From Achromobacter pestifer (GTDB lineage Bacteria; Pseudomonadota; Gammaproteobacteria; Burkholderiales; Burkholderiaceae_B), in assembly GCF_013267355.1 (NCBI RefSeq), contig NZ_CP053985.1, forward strand, positions 5,084,001-5,148,000: a stretch of 64,000 bases of DNA, read 5' to 3'. Positions 1,456 through 8,172 of this stretch are shown here, piece after piece; position 1 is the first letter of the stretch; each line of letters opens with the position of its first letter. Both the position numbers and the translations under genes were made by a program. The notes below the pieces were generated by a model. The model saw nothing but the letters and a program-made list of their open reading frames with translations. It did no database searches and was not told where the DNA came from.

Positions 1456-2430
1456 ATGCGAGCAAAATCGATCTTCGCCGTCCCGGCCGGCCTGTCCGCC
1501 GCCGACCGCCAGCAGCGCCGCCATGCGCTGGTGCGCCTGTCGCTGGCGTGGCTGGCGATGATGCAGGTGATGATGTTCGCCTGGCCCGGCTACCTGCGGC
1601 ATGAAAGCATGCCCGCCGATGCGTTGGAAACGCTGGACTGGGCCATCGTATTGATGAATTGGGCCAGCTTTGCGCTGACCGTGCCGGTGGTGGTGTATTC
1701 GGCCTGGCCGATCTGGCGCCACGCGGGCGACAATCTGCGCCACGGGCGCGCCGGCATGGACGTGCCGGTGGCCCTGGGCATCGTCGCCGCCTTCATCCCC
1801 AGCGTCCACGCCACCTACACGGGGCGGGGCGAGGTGTATTTCGATTCGGTCACGATGTTCGTGGCCTTCCTGCTGACCGCGCGCTATCTGGAGCTATGCG
1901 CCCGCCAGTCCTTTGGCGGCGCGGCGGGCGGATTGCGCCATGAGCGCGTGGAGGCGCAGCGCCTGGAGCTGGGCGCGCGCGCCGACCGGCTGGCCTCGCG
2001 CTTCGTCATGGCCCAAGTCGCGCTGGCGCTGGCCGCCGCGGCCGCCTGGGCCTATATCGATCCGGCGCACAGCATCCCGGTGATGGTGGCGCTGCTGGTG
2101 ATGAGCTGCCCCTGTGCCATGTCGATGGCGGTGCCCACCGCCATGGCCTCCGCCCATTCGGCGCTGGCGGCCCATCCCCACATGCCAGACGCGGCCTTGG
2201 ACGAGCTGCTGGGCGAGGCGCGGCGTCGCGCGCGCCAGAACCTGTACGGCTCGCTCATCTGGCATCTGCTGATGACGCCCCTGGCGCTGGTCGGCTGGGT
2301 CACGCCGTGGCTGGCCGCGATCACCATGCTGGTGTCCTCGCTGGCGGTCGCCTACAACTCGTGGCGCCTGTGCCGCCGCGATTGGTCCGGCGGCCTGGCT
2401 CCCGCCGCCGCGCTGGAAGCGGCGCAATGA
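1456..2430 (+). CDS. CcoI-like P1B-ATPase relative lacking A, P and N domains
   Basis: The 324 residues look like the membrane part of CcoI, the copper-exporting ATPase that supplies cbb3 oxidase. Hydrophobic segments lie near 27-45, 62-85, 102-120, 127-146, 180-200, 206-226 and across 265-302. The ion-site motif SCPC is at 217-220 and is followed by the usual MxxAxPTA-type stretch. The actuator domain (TGE), expected between about 147 and 176, and the phosphorylation and nucleotide domains (DKTGT, HP, GDGxND), expected between about 235 and 258, are absent. The N-terminal metal-binding domain is also absent. The frame is open and overlaps ccoS by ATGA. No Shine-Dalgarno precedes the ATG. It cannot hydrolyse ATP as drawn. 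It could be a remnant, a scaffold or a passive copper-binding factor. Confidence 0.75.
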   Translation: MRAKSIFAVPAGLSAADRQQRRHALVRLSLAWLAMMQVMMFAWPGYLRHESMPADALETLDWAIVLMNWASFALTVPVVVYSAWPIWRHAGDNLRHGRAGMDVPVALGIVAAFIPSVHATYTGRGEVYFDSVTMFVAFLLTARYLELCARQSFGGAAGGLRHERVEAQRLELGARADRLASRFVMAQVALALAAAAAWAYIDPAHSIPVMVALLVMSCPCAMSMAVPTAMASAHSALAAHPHMPDAALDELLGEARRRARQNLYGSLIWHLLMTPLALVGWVTPWLAAITMLVSSLAVAYNSWRLCRRDWSGGLAPAAALEAAQ

Positions 2431-2588
2431 CCATTCTCTACCTGCTCCTGCCCCTGTCCTTGCTGTTCGTGCTGGTCATCGGCGTGTCGCTGTGGTGGGC
2501 CGTCTTCAACGGCCAGTACGACGACACCGACGACGCCGGCCGCGCCATCCTGCTCGACGACGACAGCGGACCCGCCAGCCGCGGCTGA
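2427..2588 (+). CDS. ccoS: cbb3 oxidase maturation protein CcoS
   Basis: A 53-residue protein with one N-terminal membrane segment (about 3-27, LLLPLSLLFVLVIGVSLWW), followed by the FNGQYDD(T)DDAGRAIL block typical of CcoS. CcoS is needed for cofactor insertion into cbb3 oxidase. The start codon overlaps the stop of the preceding ATPase relative (ATGA at 2427), the usual ccoI-ccoS coupling, which supports the identity of both. Confidence 0.9.
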   Translation: MTILYLLLPLSLLFVLVIGVSLWWAVFNGQYDDTDDAGRAILLDDDSGPASRG

Positions 2589-2657: not shown

Positions 2658-2671
2658 TTGATCCAGATCAA
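2658..2671 (+). promoter_or_regulatory. FNR box upstream of ccoN
   Basis: A second copy of the same 14-mer, TTGATCCAGATCAA. With centre 2664.5 a class II start would fall near 2706, with a weak -10 (CATCAT) at 2694-2699, giving a leader of about 32 bases before the ccoN ATG. This predicts induction of ccoNOQP under low oxygen, as known for cbb3 operons. Confidence 0.88.
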
Positions 2672-2737: not shown

Positions 2738-4225
2738 ATGAACGATTGCGCCGCAATCGCAAGCAAGGCCGACACCTTCAACTACAAGATCGTGAGGCAA
2801 TTTGCGCTCATGACGGTAGTGTGGGGCATCGTCGGCATGGCTGTGGGCGTTTTTCTGGCTGCGCAGCTTATCTGGCCGCAGCTGAACTTTGATACCGCAT
2901 GGCTGAGCTACGGCCGCCTGCGTCCGCTGCACACCAACGCGGTGATCTTCGCCTTCGGCGGCAGCGCGTTGTTCACGACGTCGTACTACGTGGTCCAGCG
3001 CACCTGTCAGGCGCGCCTGTTCTGCGGCCCGCTGGCCGCGTTCACGTTCTGGGGCTGGCAGATCGTCATCGTCGCCGCCGCCATCACCTTGCCCATGGGC
3101 TTCACCAGCAGCAAGGAATACGCCGAACTCGAATGGCCCATCGACATCCTGATCACCCTGGTCTGGGTGGCTTATGCCATCGTGTTCTTCGGCACCATCA
3201 TCAAGCGCCGGTCCAAGCACATCTACGTGGCCAACTGGTTCTTCGGCTCGTACATCCTGACCATCGCCATCCTGCACATCTTCAACAACATCGAAATGCC
3301 GGTGTCGATGTGGAAGTCCTATTCCGCCTACTCCGGCGTGCAGGACGCCATGGTGCAATGGTGGTACGGCCATAACGCCGTGGGCTTTTTCCTGACCACC
3401 AGCTTCCTGGGCATGATGTATTACTTCGTGCCCAAGCAGGCCGGCCGCCCCATCTATTCCTACCGCCTGTCCATCGTCCACTTCTGGGCGCTGGCCTTCA
3501 CGTACATGTGGGCGGGCCCGCACCACCTGCTGTACACCTCGCTGCCCGACTGGACCCAGTCGCTGGGCATGACGTTCTCGCTGATCCTGCTGGCGCCGTC
3601 CTGGGGCGGCATGATCAACGGCATCATGACCCTGCAGGGCGCCTGGTACAAGCTGCGCACCGATCCGATCCTGAAATTCATGGTGACGGCGCTGTCGTTC
3701 TACGGCATGTCGACCTTCGAAGGTTCGATGATGTCGATCCGCACGGTCAACGCGCTGTCGCACTACACGGACTGGACCATCGGCCACGTGCACTCGGGCG
3801 CGTTGGGCTGGGTCGCCATGATCTCCTTCGGCTCGCTCTACTACCTGATCCCGCGCCTGTACGGCCGCGAGAAGATGTACAGCGTCAAGGCCATCGAACT
3901 GCACTTCTGGATCGCCACCATCGGCGTGGTGCTGTACATCGCCGCCATGTGGATCGCCGGCGTGCAGCAGGGCCTGATGTGGCGCGACACCGCCAGCGAC
4001 GGCACCCTGGTCTACAGCTTCGTGGAAGAACTGAAGACGCGCGTGCCGTACTACCTGATCCGTTTGCTGGGTGGCACCTTGTTCCTGTCGGGTGTGTTCG
4101 TCATGGCCTGGAACGTGTGGATGACGGTGCGCGGCGCGCAGCCGGTCAACCCCGCCATTCCGCAAGACGATCCCCATGCCGCACGCCAGCCGGTCCCCGC
4201 GACCGCCGTGCCGGCCACTGTTTGA
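2738..4225 (+). CDS. ccoN: Cytochrome c oxidase, cbb3-type, subunit I
   Basis: Catalytic subunit of the high-affinity cbb3 terminal oxidase in the inner membrane, carrying haem b and the haem b3/CuB centre. The 495-residue product has about twelve membrane segments. Conserved histidines are seen in [41 protein letters not shown] and [12 protein letters not shown] take the ATG at 2738, preceded by AGGGGAAGG. A longer reading would begin at a TTG at 2699, upstream of the predicted transcript start. ccoO follows after 10 bases. Confidence 0.96.
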
Positions 4226-4235
4226 CGAGGACATC

Positions 4236-4967
4236 ATGGCCAACAAGAAATCTGGTTTCTTTTCCCACCAGACGCTCGAGAAGAACATCGGCTGGATGAT
4301 CATCGCCAGCATCCTGGTGGTGTCCTTCGCGGGCCTGGTCCAGATCGTGCCGCTGTTCTTCCAGCACAGCACGACCCAGCCCGTCGCAGGCGTCGAACCC
4401 TACAGCGCGCTGCGCCTGATGGGCCGCGACGTCTACATCCGCGAAGGCTGCGTCGGCTGCCACTCGCAGCAGGTGCGGGTGCTGGCCGCGGAAGTGCAGC
4501 GCTACGGCTCGTACTCGATCGCCGCGGAATCGGTGTTCGACCATCCGTTCCTGTGGGGCTCCAAGCGCACCGGTCCCGACCTGGCGCGCGTGGGCGAGCG
4601 CTACTCCGACGACTGGCACCGCATCCACCTGCGCGACCCGCGCAAGGTGGTGCCGGAGTCCAACATGCCCGCCTATCCCTGGCTGGAAAAGACGGTCATC
4701 ACCGGCGAGAACGTGAGCGACCGCATGCGCGCCCTGCGCAAGCTGGGCGTGCCCTACTCGGACGAGGAAATCGCCGGGGCGCCCAAAGCCATCGAAGGCA
4801 AGACCGAGGAAGACGCGCTGGTCGCCTACCTGCAAGGGCTGGGCGTGGGTGTGCGCAAGGCCAAGCAGGCCGAGCAGGCCAAAAAGGCGGAAGAGGCCAA
4901 GAAGGCCGTCCAATCCGCCACTCAACCGGCCGCACAATCCGCCGCGCCCGCGGCGGCGGGAGGCTGA
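4236..4967 (+). CDS. ccoO: Cytochrome c oxidase, cbb3-type, subunit II
   Basis: Membrane-anchored monohaem cytochrome c of cbb3 oxidase that passes electrons to CcoN. A single membrane anchor spans about 18-42. The haem c motif CVGCH is at Cys72-Cys75-His76, with the axial-Met region near SNMPAYPWL. The 243-residue product ends in a Lys/Ala/Gln-rich extension from about residue 208, which is not part of the usual fold. Translation starts at the ATG at 4236, 10 bases after ccoN, and ccoQ begins two bases after its stop. Confidence 0.95.
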
Positions 4968-4969
4968 TC

Positions 4970-5146
4970 ATGCTGGGCTACCTGAGCGCGATCGTCACCG
5001 CCGTCTCGATGGCAACTTTTTTCGGCATTGTCTGGTGGGCCTGCTCGCGCGGCCGCCAGAGCGCCAACCGCGAATCGGCCATGCTGCCGTTCGCACTGCC
5101 CGATGAGTTCGGGCAGGGACAACAAGATGGAGCGAATCGGTCATGA
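4970..5146 (+). CDS. ccoQ: cbb3 oxidase small subunit CcoQ
   Basis: A 58-residue protein with one membrane helix (about 3-25) and a polar tail. Its place between ccoO and ccoP and its size identify it as CcoQ, which stabilises the CcoNO-CcoP complex. Its end overlaps the ccoP start by four bases (ATGA at 5143), implying translational coupling. Confidence 0.9.
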   Translation: MLGYLSAIVTAVSMATFFGIVWWACSRGRQSANRESAMLPFALPDEFGQGQQDGANRS

Positions 5147-6123
5147 GCGATTTCGTTAATGGCTTCTGGGGATATTTCATCTCTATCGTCGCCGTGGGCG
5201 GCGTGGTCTGGTGCGTGTGGCTGCTGTACACGCAGCGCCGCTGGCTCAGCACCAAGCCGGCCAATGGCAAGGTCGAGGACACGGGCCACGTCTGGGACGG
5301 CGACCTGACCGAACTGAACAACCCGGTGCCGGGCTGGTGGACCTGGATGTACCTGCTGGCTTGCGCTTTCGCGCTGGGCTACCTGTTCTTCATGCCGGGC
5401 CTGGGCGAATTCAAGGGCCAGCTGGGCTACAGCAGCACCGAGGAAGTCGCCAAGCAGCAGGCCAAGATGGCCGAGGCCGTGCGGCCGATCTACGCGCGCT
5501 TCGAAACCATGGACATTCCGCAGATCGCCCAGGATCCGGGCGCCCGCGAAATCGGCCAGCGCCTGTTCCTGAACACCTGCGCGCAATGCCATGGCTCGGA
5601 CGCCAAGGGCGGCCCCAGCTTCCCCAACCTGGCTGATGGCGACTGGCTGCACGGCGGTTCGCCCGAAGCCATCACCCAGACCATCACGCAAGGGCGCGTT
5701 GGCGTGATGCCGCCCTGGAAGGCCGCGATCGACGCCAAGACCGCGGGCGACATCGCGCAATACGTGCGTTCGCTGTCGGGCCTGACGGCCGATCCGGTGC
5801 GCGTGTTCCGCGGCAAGCGCGAGTTCGCCAACTACTGCGTGGCCTGTCACGGTGTCGACGGCAAGGGCAACCAGGCGCTGGGCGCGCCCAACCTGACGGA
5901 CGACGTCTGGCTCTACGGCAGCTCGGAGGCCACCATCGTCAAGACCATTCTTGACGGCCGCGACAACCGCATGCCGGCGCATGGCGACATCCTGACGCCC
6001 GAGCAGATCAAGATCCTGACGGCATGGGTCTGGGGCCTGTCGAACAAGCCGGAAACGACGGCGAGCGCCGCGCCGGTGAGCACCGCGCCGGCAAGCGCCG
6101 CGCCGGCAACGGCGACGAAGTAA
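5143..6123 (+). CDS. ccoP: Cytochrome c oxidase, cbb3-type, subunit III (dihaem)
   Basis: Dihaem cytochrome c subunit that receives electrons from soluble cytochromes. Two N-terminal membrane segments (about 8-29 and 65-84) frame the FixP-N-type region with TGHVWDGDL and NNPVPGWW. Haem motifs are CAQCH at 146-150 and CVACH at 232-236. The 326-residue product ends in an Ala/Thr/Pro-rich tail of about 25 residues. It is the last gene of ccoNOQP and is separated from ccoG by 75 bases containing a strong hairpin. Confidence 0.96.
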   Translation: MSDFVNGFWGYFISIVAVGGVVWCVWLLYTQRRWLSTKPANGKVEDTGHVWDGDLTELNNPVPGWWTWMYLLACAFALGYLFFMPGLGEFKGQLGYSSTEEVAKQQAKMAEAVRPIYARFETMDIPQIAQDPGAREIGQRLFLNTCAQCHGSDAKGGPSFPNLADGDWLHGGSPEAITQTITQGRVGVMPPWKAAIDAKTAGDIAQYVRSLSGLTADPVRVFRGKREFANYCVACHGVDGKGNQALGAPNLTDDVWLYGSSEATIVKTILDGRDNRMPAHGDILTPEQIKILTAWVWGLSNKPETTASAAPVSTAPASAAPATATK

Positions 6124-6198: not shown

Positions 6199-7689
6199 AT
6201 GGAAGATGGGTCAGCCGCAAGGGTCGGCAATTCGCCTGACGGTGACCCGCCGCCCTGGCGGCCGCACGTGAGGCCTCCGCGCCCCGGGACGGAAACCCTG
6301 GAGCAGACGCTGGCGGGCGTGCGCAGCAAGATCTACCCGCGGTCCGTCAGCGGCATCTTCGCCCGCTGGCGCATCGCGTTCGTCTTTCTGACCCAGCTGG
6401 TTTTCTACGGCCTGCCGTGGCTGCAATGGAACGGCCGCCAGGCCGTGCTGTTCGACCTGGGCGCGCGCAAGTTCTATCTCTTCGGCCTGGTGCTGTGGCC
6501 GCAGGACGTGGTCTACCTGGCGGTGCTGCTGGTGATTTCGGCGCTGGCGCTGTTCCTGTTCACCGCGGTGGCGGGGCGGCTGTTCTGCGGCTATGCCTGT
6601 CCGCAGACCGTCTACACCGAAATCTTCATGTGGATCGAGCGCAAGGTTGAAGGCGACCGCGTCGCGCGCATCCGCCTGGACGAATCGCCCTGGACCTGGC
6701 GCAAGGCGCGCCTGAAGCTCACCAAGCATTTCCTGTGGATCGCGCTGGCCTGGTGGACGGGTTCCACCTTCATCGGCTATTTCGCGCCCATCCGCGAACT
6801 GGGCCATGAGCTGTTCGCGCTGCAACTCGGCCCCTGGCAGTGGTTCTGGATGCTGTTCTACGGCTTCGCCACCTGGGGCAACGCCGGCTTCATGCGCGAA
6901 TCGGTGTGCAAGTACATGTGCCCTTATGCGCGCTTCCAGAGCGTGATGGTGGACCCCGACACCTTCGTGGTCACCTACGACAAGCGCCGCGGCGATCCGC
7001 GCGGCGGCCGCTCGCGCAAGGTGGACCACAAGGCCGCCGGGCTGGGCGATTGCGTCGATTGCAGCCTGTGCGTGCAGGTCTGTCCGACCGGCATCGACAT
7101 CCGCGACGGCCTGCAGTACATGTGCATCGGCTGCGGCGCCTGTATCGACGCCTGCGAACAGGTCATGGACAAGATGCAGTACGAGCCCGGCCTGATCCGC
7201 TATACCTCGGACCGCGCCATGCAGGACGGGCTGTCCACCAAGAGCGCGCGCTCCCATCTGCTGCGCCCGCGCGTGCTGGTCTACGGCACGCTGATCCTGG
7301 CGCTGGCCATCGCCTTCGTGGTTTCGCTCGCCATCCGCAACCCCTTGCGGGTGGACGTGATCCGCGACCGCGGCGCGCTGGGACGCGAAGTGGCGGGCGG
7401 CATGATCGAAAACGTGTACCGCCTGCAGATCATCAACACGTCCGACCAGCCGATGCGCCTGCAGCTCTCGGCGGACGGCATGCCCGGCCTGCAGGTAATG
7501 ACCGGGCAGCAGGGCTCCGACACGGTCGACGTCGAAGCGGCGGCCAACAAGCTGGTGCCCATGGTCATCCGCGCGCCGGCTGGCGCCGAGCCCGGCGCCC
7601 ATGCCATCACGCTGCGCGCGCGCGGCCAGGACGGCGAGCAGCGTCAGGTCGAGACCGACGAGCCCGCCAGTTTTTACGTACCCGATTGA
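6199..7689 (+). CDS. ccoG: Cytochrome c oxidase accessory protein CcoG (RdxA/FixG), cupric reductase type
   Basis: Polyferredoxin membrane protein of cbb3 assembly. CcoG is described as reducing Cu(II) to Cu(I) before delivery to CcoN. The 496-residue product has membrane segments near 55-75, 95-120, 175-198, 208-225 and 357-378. Cys motifs are CGYACPQTVY, CKYMCPYARFQ and two ferredoxin-type clusters, CxxCxLCVQVCP and CIGCGACIDAC. A periplasmic FixG-C-terminal Ig-like domain covers about 390-496. The ATG at 6199 follows an AGCAGGGAG-type ribosome site. ccoH follows after 20 bases. Confidence 0.95.
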   Translation: MEDGSAARVGNSPDGDPPPWRPHVRPPRPGTETLEQTLAGVRSKIYPRSVSGIFARWRIAFVFLTQLVFYGLPWLQWNGRQAVLFDLGARKFYLFGLVLWPQDVVYLAVLLVISALALFLFTAVAGRLFCGYACPQTVYTEIFMWIERKVEGDRVARIRLDESPWTWRKARLKLTKHFLWIALAWWTGSTFIGYFAPIRELGHELFALQLGPWQWFWMLFYGFATWGNAGFMRESVCKYMCPYARFQSVMVDPDTFVVTYDKRRGDPRGGRSRKVDHKAAGLGDCVDCSLCVQVCPTGIDIRDGLQYMCIGCGACIDACEQVMDKMQYEPGLIRYTSDRAMQDGLSTKSARSHLLRPRVLVYGTLILALAIAFVVSLAIRNPLRVDVIRDRGALGREVAGGMIENVYRLQIINTSDQPMRLQLSADGMPGLQVMTGQQGSDTVDVEAAANKLVPMVIRAPAGAEPGAHAITLRARGQDGEQRQVETDEPASFYVPD

Positions 7690-7709: not shown

Positions 7710-7919
7710 ATGAACCCCTCCCAATCCGCCAAAGCCGCCAAGCCCTGGTACCGCGAACCCTGGCCCTGGATCCTGATGGCCGGCCCGTTCGCGGCCATGA
7801 TAGGCTGCTTCATCACGATCTACTTCGCTTTCACCAACTTCAGCAGTCAGCCGATCCAGGAAGGCGTGGTCAAGCGCGGCCTGGTCATCGAGCAGGTTGC
7901 GCCCAGCGCCAATCCGTAA
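7710..7919 (+). CDS. ccoH: Short FixH/CcoH-like protein
   Basis: A 69-residue protein with PWYREPWPW before a single membrane helix (about 20-42). It matches the N-terminal anchor of FixH/CcoH, which helps assemble cbb3 oxidase. Classical FixH proteins are about 150-170 residues with a periplasmic domain, and here only about 25 residues follow the helix. The assignment rests on the N-terminal motif and on its position directly after ccoG. Confidence 0.7.
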   Translation: MNPSQSAKAAKPWYREPWPWILMAGPFAAMIGCFITIYFAFTNFSSQPIQEGVVKRGLVIEQVAPSANP

Positions 7920-7935
7920 CCGGGGAGTACAACAG

Positions 7936-8172
7936 ATGGGCTTGCGATCATTGATGTGGATCCTGTGGCCGTCCTTCATGGCGGCCGCGGCGGGGAGCGC
8001 GCTGATCTTCGCCTTGATCGATCCCCTGGACGTGGCGATCTTCGGCCACGTCCCGACGGGGCGGACGGGGTTCTATACCGTGTCGTTCTTTGTGCTGTGG
8101 GTGATGGCGGGACTGTCCAGCACGCTGACGGCGTATCTGATGCCCAAGCCGGAGGAAGACGAGGATCTGTAG
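7936..8172 (+). CDS. Small membrane protein, end of ccoGH operon
   Basis: A 78-residue protein with two membrane helices (about 8-28 and 45-68) and an acidic C-terminus (PKPEEDEDL). A GGGGAG ribosome site precedes the ATG at 7936, 16 bases after ccoH, so it belongs to the same transcript. I do not recognise a named family. Its place suggests a role with cbb3 oxidase or its assembly (inference). Confidence 0.7.
   Translation: MGLRSLMWILWPSFMAAAAGSALIFALIDPLDVAIFGHVPTGRTGFYTVSFFVLWVMAGLSSTLTAYLMPKPEEDEDL

Follow-up and report, generated by a model that had tools for sequence, protein, structure and literature searches.

We have analyzed a stretch of 64,000 nucleotides from Achromobacter pestifer (contig NZ_CP053985.1, positions 5,084,001 to 5,148,000; hereafter the window), near the beginning of which lies a gene cluster for a cbb3-type oxidase. 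The gene of interest stands ahead of ccoS and the ccoNOQP genes (Table 1), and encodes, in an intact frame, a CcoI copper ATPase of which only the membrane helices are left. We refer to this as the short form of CcoI. Its stop codon overlaps the start of ccoS within an ATGA at 2426-2429. The genome comprises 7.18 Mb in two contigs, and the nearest named relatives are from Achromobacter, with identities up to 97%. An initial annotation of the window had reported the open frame, the upstream FNR-type box, the ATGA coupling to ccoS and an SCPC motif at residues 217-220, and all of these are confirmed.

The extent of the reduction is seen by alignment with one full CcoI of the same family (L057, 844 amino acids (aa)). 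The short form lacks the counterpart of residues 1-179 of the full protein. The actuator (A) domain is gone after short residues 156-160 (L057 residues 332-394 and 399-439, 104 aa), and the phosphorylation (P) and nucleotide (N) domains are gone after short residue 245 (L057 residues 525-782, 258 aa). The two internal gaps described in the initial annotation are therefore both real, with sizes (about 130 and 300 aa) and places (residues 147-176 and 235-258) that were roughly right. Its description of a protein reduced to the membrane domain also stands, although it missed the N-terminal loss of about 179 aa and an Asn-to-His change in the membrane site. Helices are predicted at residues 15-41, 54-82/84-95, 102-122, 129-153, 160-201, 203-216/220-239, 245-278 and 284-307. 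The only Pfam match is to positions 102-180 of the 181 of E1-E2_ATPase (PF00122; E = 9.8e-11, residues 163-239). No other family stood above the P-type ATPases in the VIA-align listing for the protein, a result that excludes nothing. The protein contains neither the phosphorylated aspartate of a DKTGT motif nor an actuator domain with TGE, both of which define the P-type ATPase enzyme, and with the catalytic domains absent it would not be capable of ATP-dependent Cu(I) translocation. Judged by its sequence the short form does not count as a P-type ATPase enzyme, and by descent it belongs to CcoI. In this respect the earlier suggestion that it has kept a use without ATP hydrolysis finds good support, the A, P and N domains all being missing from the protein.

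The short form is not a product of chance, because 906 of 7998 scored database candidates match it at E ≤ 0.001 and most of the 120 matches listed are of about the same length. These carry the names hypothetical protein, membrane protein, P-type ATPase, cation transport ATPase or copper transporting ATPase. A gap in the assembly is an unlikely cause, because many genomes that were assembled independently show the gene at the same length. We also considered a split gene, with the missing domains encoded elsewhere. This was rejected, as the genome contains no separate DKTGT motif, and its six PF00122 matches are accounted for by the short gene and the five full P-type genes.

A tree calculated from the membrane columns, with 11 CopA, CopB-like and ZntA-like proteins included, united CcoI with the short form (100/100) and placed the short form in a single clade (100/100) that descends from the CcoI lineage, apart from CopA. 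The short clade grouped (97/92) with seven full CcoI proteins, six from its own family and one from another. Its stem is long (0.45 in this tree, from which the far relative L067 was left out, and 0.89 in an earlier one), so the loss of domains went with much change. On the sequence evidence the short form is a ccoI descendant of single origin that has lost all of its cytosolic domains and has been kept as the CcoI of the family. One genome (G026) has a full CcoI, and the four other sampled genomes of its genus in which the locus is intact (G086, G108, G127 and G144) have the short form; the full gene of G026 is likely a later replacement by a full copy. As a separate observation, this CcoI (L059) lies on a long branch.

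The short form is not unique to this strain. Open frames of 309-390 aa were found in 102 of 151 sampled genomes of the family, without a single internal stop in the 102 short matches listed, and 31 of 43 genera (counted from the genome table) are represented. Named records include Achromobacter, Bordetella, Alcaligenes, Pusillimonas, Pollutimonas, Paenalcaligenes, Advenella, Pelistega, Castellaniella and Candidimonas, and a protein search added Taylorella, Oligella and Brackiella. We take the genera carrying the short form to be Alcaligenaceae; a few metagenome bins that have it are labeled only Burkholderiaceae or beta proteobacterium. A wider survey took in 250 genomes of the order, labeled as 51 families, together with 398 from the phylum, scoring the best 8 or 5 candidates per genome. 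The matches listed from outside the family extended over just the first half or so of the model, and nearly all lay in frames of at least 730 aa, that is, full ATPases; the few shorter frames among them also extended no further. No intermediate lacking just one domain was present among the matches listed from these 250 and 398 genomes.

The occurrence of the short form follows that of the oxidase. CcoO (E below 1e-48) is present in 118 of the 151 genomes, of which 101 have the short form, 12 a full CcoI, one an interrupted short form (G092) and four neither of these arrangements. The full CcoI is a single frame beside the oxidase genes in 11 genomes (G011, G012, G026, G030, G051, G063, G065, G073, G131, G135 and G147) and is split over two contigs in G079, while in the remaining four (G021, G069, G106 and G142) the locus is cut by contig ends or truncated there. 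G098 is the one genome with a short form but no CcoO, and there the gene sits 602 bp from the end of its contig. Another 32 genomes have neither gene. The association gives a Fisher P = 3e-19, a value that ignores relatedness. A ccoS match was found at all 119 short loci examined, and the order short gene, ccoS, ccoNOQP, the place expected for the CcoI lineage, is present in 18 of the 19 loci that were retrieved with flanking sequence. One cluster (L048, in G077) is rearranged, with the short gene and ccoS divergent from ccoNOQPG. In G092 (L056) the short gene is broken, and ccoN and ccoP each match in two pieces; where cbb3 goes, the short form goes. The interruption of the short gene in this locus spans about 1.1 kb (5440-6580 of L056) and contains a 332-aa transposase-like frame that is presumably IS481-like. 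With its broken ccoN, G092 presumably fits B. pertussis. A broken ccoN has been reported in that species in two accounts (PMC11257404, PMC13038864).

We calculated the ratio of nonsynonymous to synonymous substitution rates (dN/dS) for the short gene from 16 Achromobacter sequences, using the simple Nei-Gojobori method. The median over 120 pairs is 0.146 and the maximum 0.278, indicating purifying selection. Corresponding values for bioA, ccoO, ccoN and ccoS are 0.133, 0.122, 0.059 and 0.283, respectively, although these controls are rough, being taken from 9 to 16 sequences in stop-to-stop frames. The frame breaks and neutral dN/dS of a pseudogene are thus not found. These results bear on the idea that the gene is a decaying ccoI relic carried along by the operon. 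The loss of every catalytic domain and the interruption in G092 might be read in that way. Yet the length is constant with no stops in 102 genomes, the dN/dS values are those of a constrained gene, the metal-site residues are invariant or nearly so, and in G092 ccoN and ccoP are broken as well, so that the decay there follows the loss of cbb3. The selection and conservation data refute this explanation in the main, and we regard it as scarcely credible.

What has been conserved is the presumed path of copper through the membrane. We compared 119 short loci (102 distinct proteins, some genomes being met twice) with 30 full CcoI proteins picked by DKTGT and CPC, among them L067. Because CPC and an M-x-Q-x-M motif were required by the filter defining the 119 loci, the invariance of those residues in this set is by construction. 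CPC is borne out by unfiltered sets, namely the 79 alignment rows and all 199 database proteins of 300-345 aa. Ten of 129 loci that failed the filter were checked apart, and all ten have CPC, His270, Met291 and Ser295. Two elements of the membrane site of P1B-1 ATPases, CPC in helix M4 and Met-x3-Ser in M6, are thus present in the short form. The Met and Ser are found in 30/30 full CcoI, and in the database proteins Met291 and Ser295 occur in 198/199 and 197/199, respectively. The third element, Tyr-Asn in M5, is absent, being replaced by Trp or Phe269 with His270 at 119/119 loci. Position 270 is Asn in 30/30 full CcoI, and in the database proteins it is His in 198/199 and Leu in one, as determined by alignment; a regular-expression search for this histidine had overlooked 25 of the 199. 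Position 269 is Trp in 113 and Phe in six of the short loci, and Tyr in 29/30 full CcoI.

Four further residues placed by alignment (M101, D/E130, E146 and D177) we take to be counterparts of the copper entry and exit residues of LpCopA. The putative entry residue M101 is kept at all 119 loci, as is Asp or Glu at the putative exit position 130. The copper path therefore reads as largely whole, with its M5 ligand changed and the motor gone. Could the changed ligand indicate a different cargo? With His270 serving as a new ligand for haem or another metal, the protein might take part in inserting a cofactor other than CuB. The histidine is clade-wide, and CcoS, the product of the neighboring gene, is thought to help cofactor insertion. 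However, the Cu(I) elements CPC and Met-x3-Ser are unchanged, and we consider a different ligand very improbable.

The same residues bear on a second possibility, that the short form is an assembly scaffold holding CcoS, CcoN and a periplasmic chaperone, in which copper would be purely structural or sensed, and never passed on. The constant presence of ccoS at the 119 loci is consistent with this, as are many surface or helix residues that are fixed in the short loci and not in full CcoI (W32, N68, W87, P115, Q187 and A137). Moreover, CcoI of R. capsulatus is described as a hub that is functional when fused to SenC (PMC8475189). A pure scaffold would need neither an entry nor an exit residue, yet M101 and D/E130 are fixed in addition to CPC. 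The conserved residues lean towards a conduit, and we think a scaffold unlikely.

A profile of 20 full CcoI proteins, with the six best candidates per genome scored, gave 835-1085 bits in nine genomes and 613 bits for the next listed score. With this profile no CcoI-grade match was found in any of the 102 short-form genomes, where the best score was 596 bits (G133); A. pestifer reached 559 bits with its CopA. Scores below 613 were taken as CopA-type proteins or pieces of split CcoI on the basis of score and place, not singly, and the profile can miss some, since three genomes with a lower-scoring or split CcoI (G030, G063 and G079) fall under this value. The family PF12156 was tried as a detector of full CcoI and proved too insensitive, finding 3 of 151 genomes though 12 have the full protein. 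The search for a complete CcoI proposed in the initial annotation was thus negative for the A. pestifer genome, whose five DKTGT motifs all lie within five other full P-type ATPases, read from sequence as CopA (L001), ZntA-like (L002), CopB-like (L003), MgtA-like (L004) and KdpB-like (L005).

Copper ATPases of other types are widespread. The family cut-off was passed by 140 of the 151 genomes and seven had no match; therefore at most four short-form genomes can lack a copper ATPase. Of 11 short-form genomes inspected one by one, nine have a copper-type ATPase that clears the cut-off, and two drafts of 91% and 84% completeness (G119 and G146) have just sub-cut-off frames. Taylorella has kept a full copper ATPase (L069, a 719-aa frame). 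These enzymes might do the pumping that the initial annotation assigned to another ATPase, but additional CopA is no replacement for CcoI in Rhodobacter (PMC8475189). They might also in principle supply ATP drive in trans, the short form pairing with CopA or another P-type ATPase that acts through its cytosolic domains. Their presence in nine of the 11 genomes would allow this. Yet P-type coupling uses covalent linkers to M2-M4 that are cut away in the short form, and the partner would have to be CopA; the A. pestifer genome has no separate P domain. We know of no precedent for the membrane domain of a P-type ATPase being driven in trans, and we regard the idea as quite improbable.

Can an oxidase be assembled with the short form? 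T. equigenitalis (G023, L040; 100% protein match) has the short form and no CcoI was found there. Its sole COX1-family protein is the CcoN of the short-form cluster, and a bd oxidase was not found, other kinds of alternative oxidase not having been searched for. Its genome account gives cbb3 as the one terminal oxidase, and cites dependence on the tricarboxylic acid cycle and oxidative phosphorylation (PMC3250509). With cbb3 the sole terminal oxidase found in an organism having the short form and no CcoI, it follows that the short form very probably supports a working cbb3 oxidase. The oxidase census covered 20 genomes. G058 has the same counts as T. equigenitalis, while G014 and G085 have CcoN and a second COX1 protein in a frame of 754-755 aa that looks like a nitric oxide reductase, with no bd oxidase; the rest carry bd or further COX1 proteins.

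The remaining features of the locus are collected in Table 1. We take the upstream boxes to function with FNR on the basis of their motif. Of 118 short loci, 100 have TTGA-N6-TCAA in the 200 bp upstream, 98 of them at -48 to -52, compared with a background of 0.034 per 200 bp over all loci. The 18 loci without an upstream box include L037-L043, among them Taylorella (L040) and Pelistega, where regulation may have changed. In the window the first box lies inside a longer perfect palindrome (1401-1428) that extends 7 bp further on each side and is followed by TTT; this may also serve as a terminator-like hairpin for the gene that precedes it. The box arms are extended by at least 4 bp in 18 loci. 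A small membrane-protein frame of 78 aa, unnamed, follows the probable ccoH (7936-8172). Comparison of short-form with full-CcoI loci, ignoring relatedness, revealed nine positions of CcoN and five of CcoG that are nearly fixed with the short form and different with full CcoI, reflecting co-adaptation or shared ancestry; no such positions were found in CcoS. L067 itself (777 aa, in G113) is a P1B ATPase whose gene neighbors a distant relative of ccoN (29% identity), and may belong to a second kind of oxidase cluster.

Table 1. Features of the short CcoI locus, in coordinates of the window
Feature	Position	Strand	Remarks
FNR-type box TTGATCCAGATCAA	1408..1421		Exact match; 48 bp upstream of short-gene start
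Short CcoI (324 aa), descended from CcoI copper ATPase, membrane domain only	1456..2430	+	Open frame, ATG start
SCPC motif, residues 217-220, in M4; copper site by P1B-1 likeness	2104..2115	+	Invariant in 79/79 alignment rows
His270 codon in M5; Asn in full CcoI	2263..2265	+	His in 129/129 short loci (119 + 10)
Met291 to Ser295 in M6; copper site by P1B-1 likeness	2326..2340	+	Met 119/119; Ser295 116/119, Thr in 3
ccoS, overlapping short gene by ATGA	2427..2588	+	PF03597 FixS, 62 bits; TIGR00847
Second FNR-type box, upstream of ccoN	2658..2671		Exact match
ccoN	2738..4225	+	COX1 match; frame checked
ccoO	4236..4967	+	Frame checked; named from order and sequence; served as CcoO query
ccoQ	4970..5146	+	Frame checked; between ccoO and ccoP
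ccoP	5143..6123	+	Frame checked; two CxxCH motifs in frame
ccoG	6199..7689	+	Frame checked; order kept in relatives
Probable ccoH	7710..7919	+	Frame checked; named by position only

How might the short form act? A CPC mutant of R. capsulatus CcoI is reported to keep its ATPase activity and to have no cbb3 oxidase, and deletion of ccoI is rescued neither by added copper nor by extra CopA (PMC8475189). The membrane copper site is thus essential, and bulk export is no substitute. The short form has kept the essential site and discarded the motor, and a dedicated relay of Cu(I) to CcoN is therefore favored. We consider it probable that the short form would act as an ATP-free relay dedicated to cbb3 assembly, and not as a pump. 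The protein would fold like the membrane domain of CopA, and Cu(I) would be held by the cysteines of CPC, by Met291 and probably also by His270, the latter probably being a new ligand. The ion would then pass on towards CuB in CcoN, with or without SenC-type chaperones as intermediaries, in a direction set by the affinities of donor and acceptor instead of by ATP. Bulk export would be left to CopA; its supply of the periplasm, together with the chaperone affinities, would also provide the energy, and no partner ATPase would be needed. More tentatively, and being somewhat less than half persuaded, we suggest the complete version of this proposal, in which the membrane domain of a P-type ATPase has become an ATP-free Cu(I) conduit, with its entry-to-exit path kept and its site re-tuned from Asn to His, and alone replaces CcoI, so that the only oxidase of Taylorella would be built without a CcoI pump.

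Several points weigh against a relay. The entry residue E146 is kept in 107 of 119 short loci, with Ala in ten and Asp in two, and D177 is Asp in 87 and Asn in 32. A partner ATPase may also act in trans, although, as discussed above, this is improbable. Transport of Cu(I) by R. capsulatus CcoI is described as exclusively ATP-dependent (PMC8475189). Finally, B. bronchiseptica could not be reduced to the cco oxidase alone, though the ccoN transcripts were the most abundant; the authors attribute this failure to translation, assembly or cofactors (PMC11257404).

CcoI/FixI, a P1B-1 ATPase of CopA2 type, shares with the short form its place beside ccoS and the cbb3 genes, the helices, CPC, Met-x3-Ser and descent. 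In contrast, the short form lacks the N-terminal metal-binding part and the actuator, phosphorylation and nucleotide domains, has His for Asn in M5, and by its sequence should be unable to hydrolyze ATP. The copper exporter CopA (P1B-1; structures 3rfu and 4bbj) lies on a separate branch of the tree (100/100) and retains all cytosolic domains. If a relay is correct, the closest functional likeness would be to CcoA and Ctr1, which move copper free of ATP. CcoA is an importer of the major facilitator superfamily, and neither of these carriers has the P-type ATPase fold. To our knowledge the short form would be the first conserved descendant of a P-type ATPase without any catalytic domain. A literature search, with subscription papers largely outside it, found no description of a short CcoI; respiratory ATPases are stated as left out in the accessible part of PMC6769254, and that of PMC10903467 contains nothing on the short gene.

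CcoI has been studied as an ATP-driven pump, and its role beyond export is open, since neither added copper nor extra CopA can replace it in R. capsulatus (PMC8475189). A family that builds cbb3 with the membrane domain of CcoI only would have separated export from this other role naturally, in a way that can be tested by complementation. If true, this would shed new light on how the buried CuB site receives its copper, and if ATP-free transfer of copper were shown the mechanism would be new.
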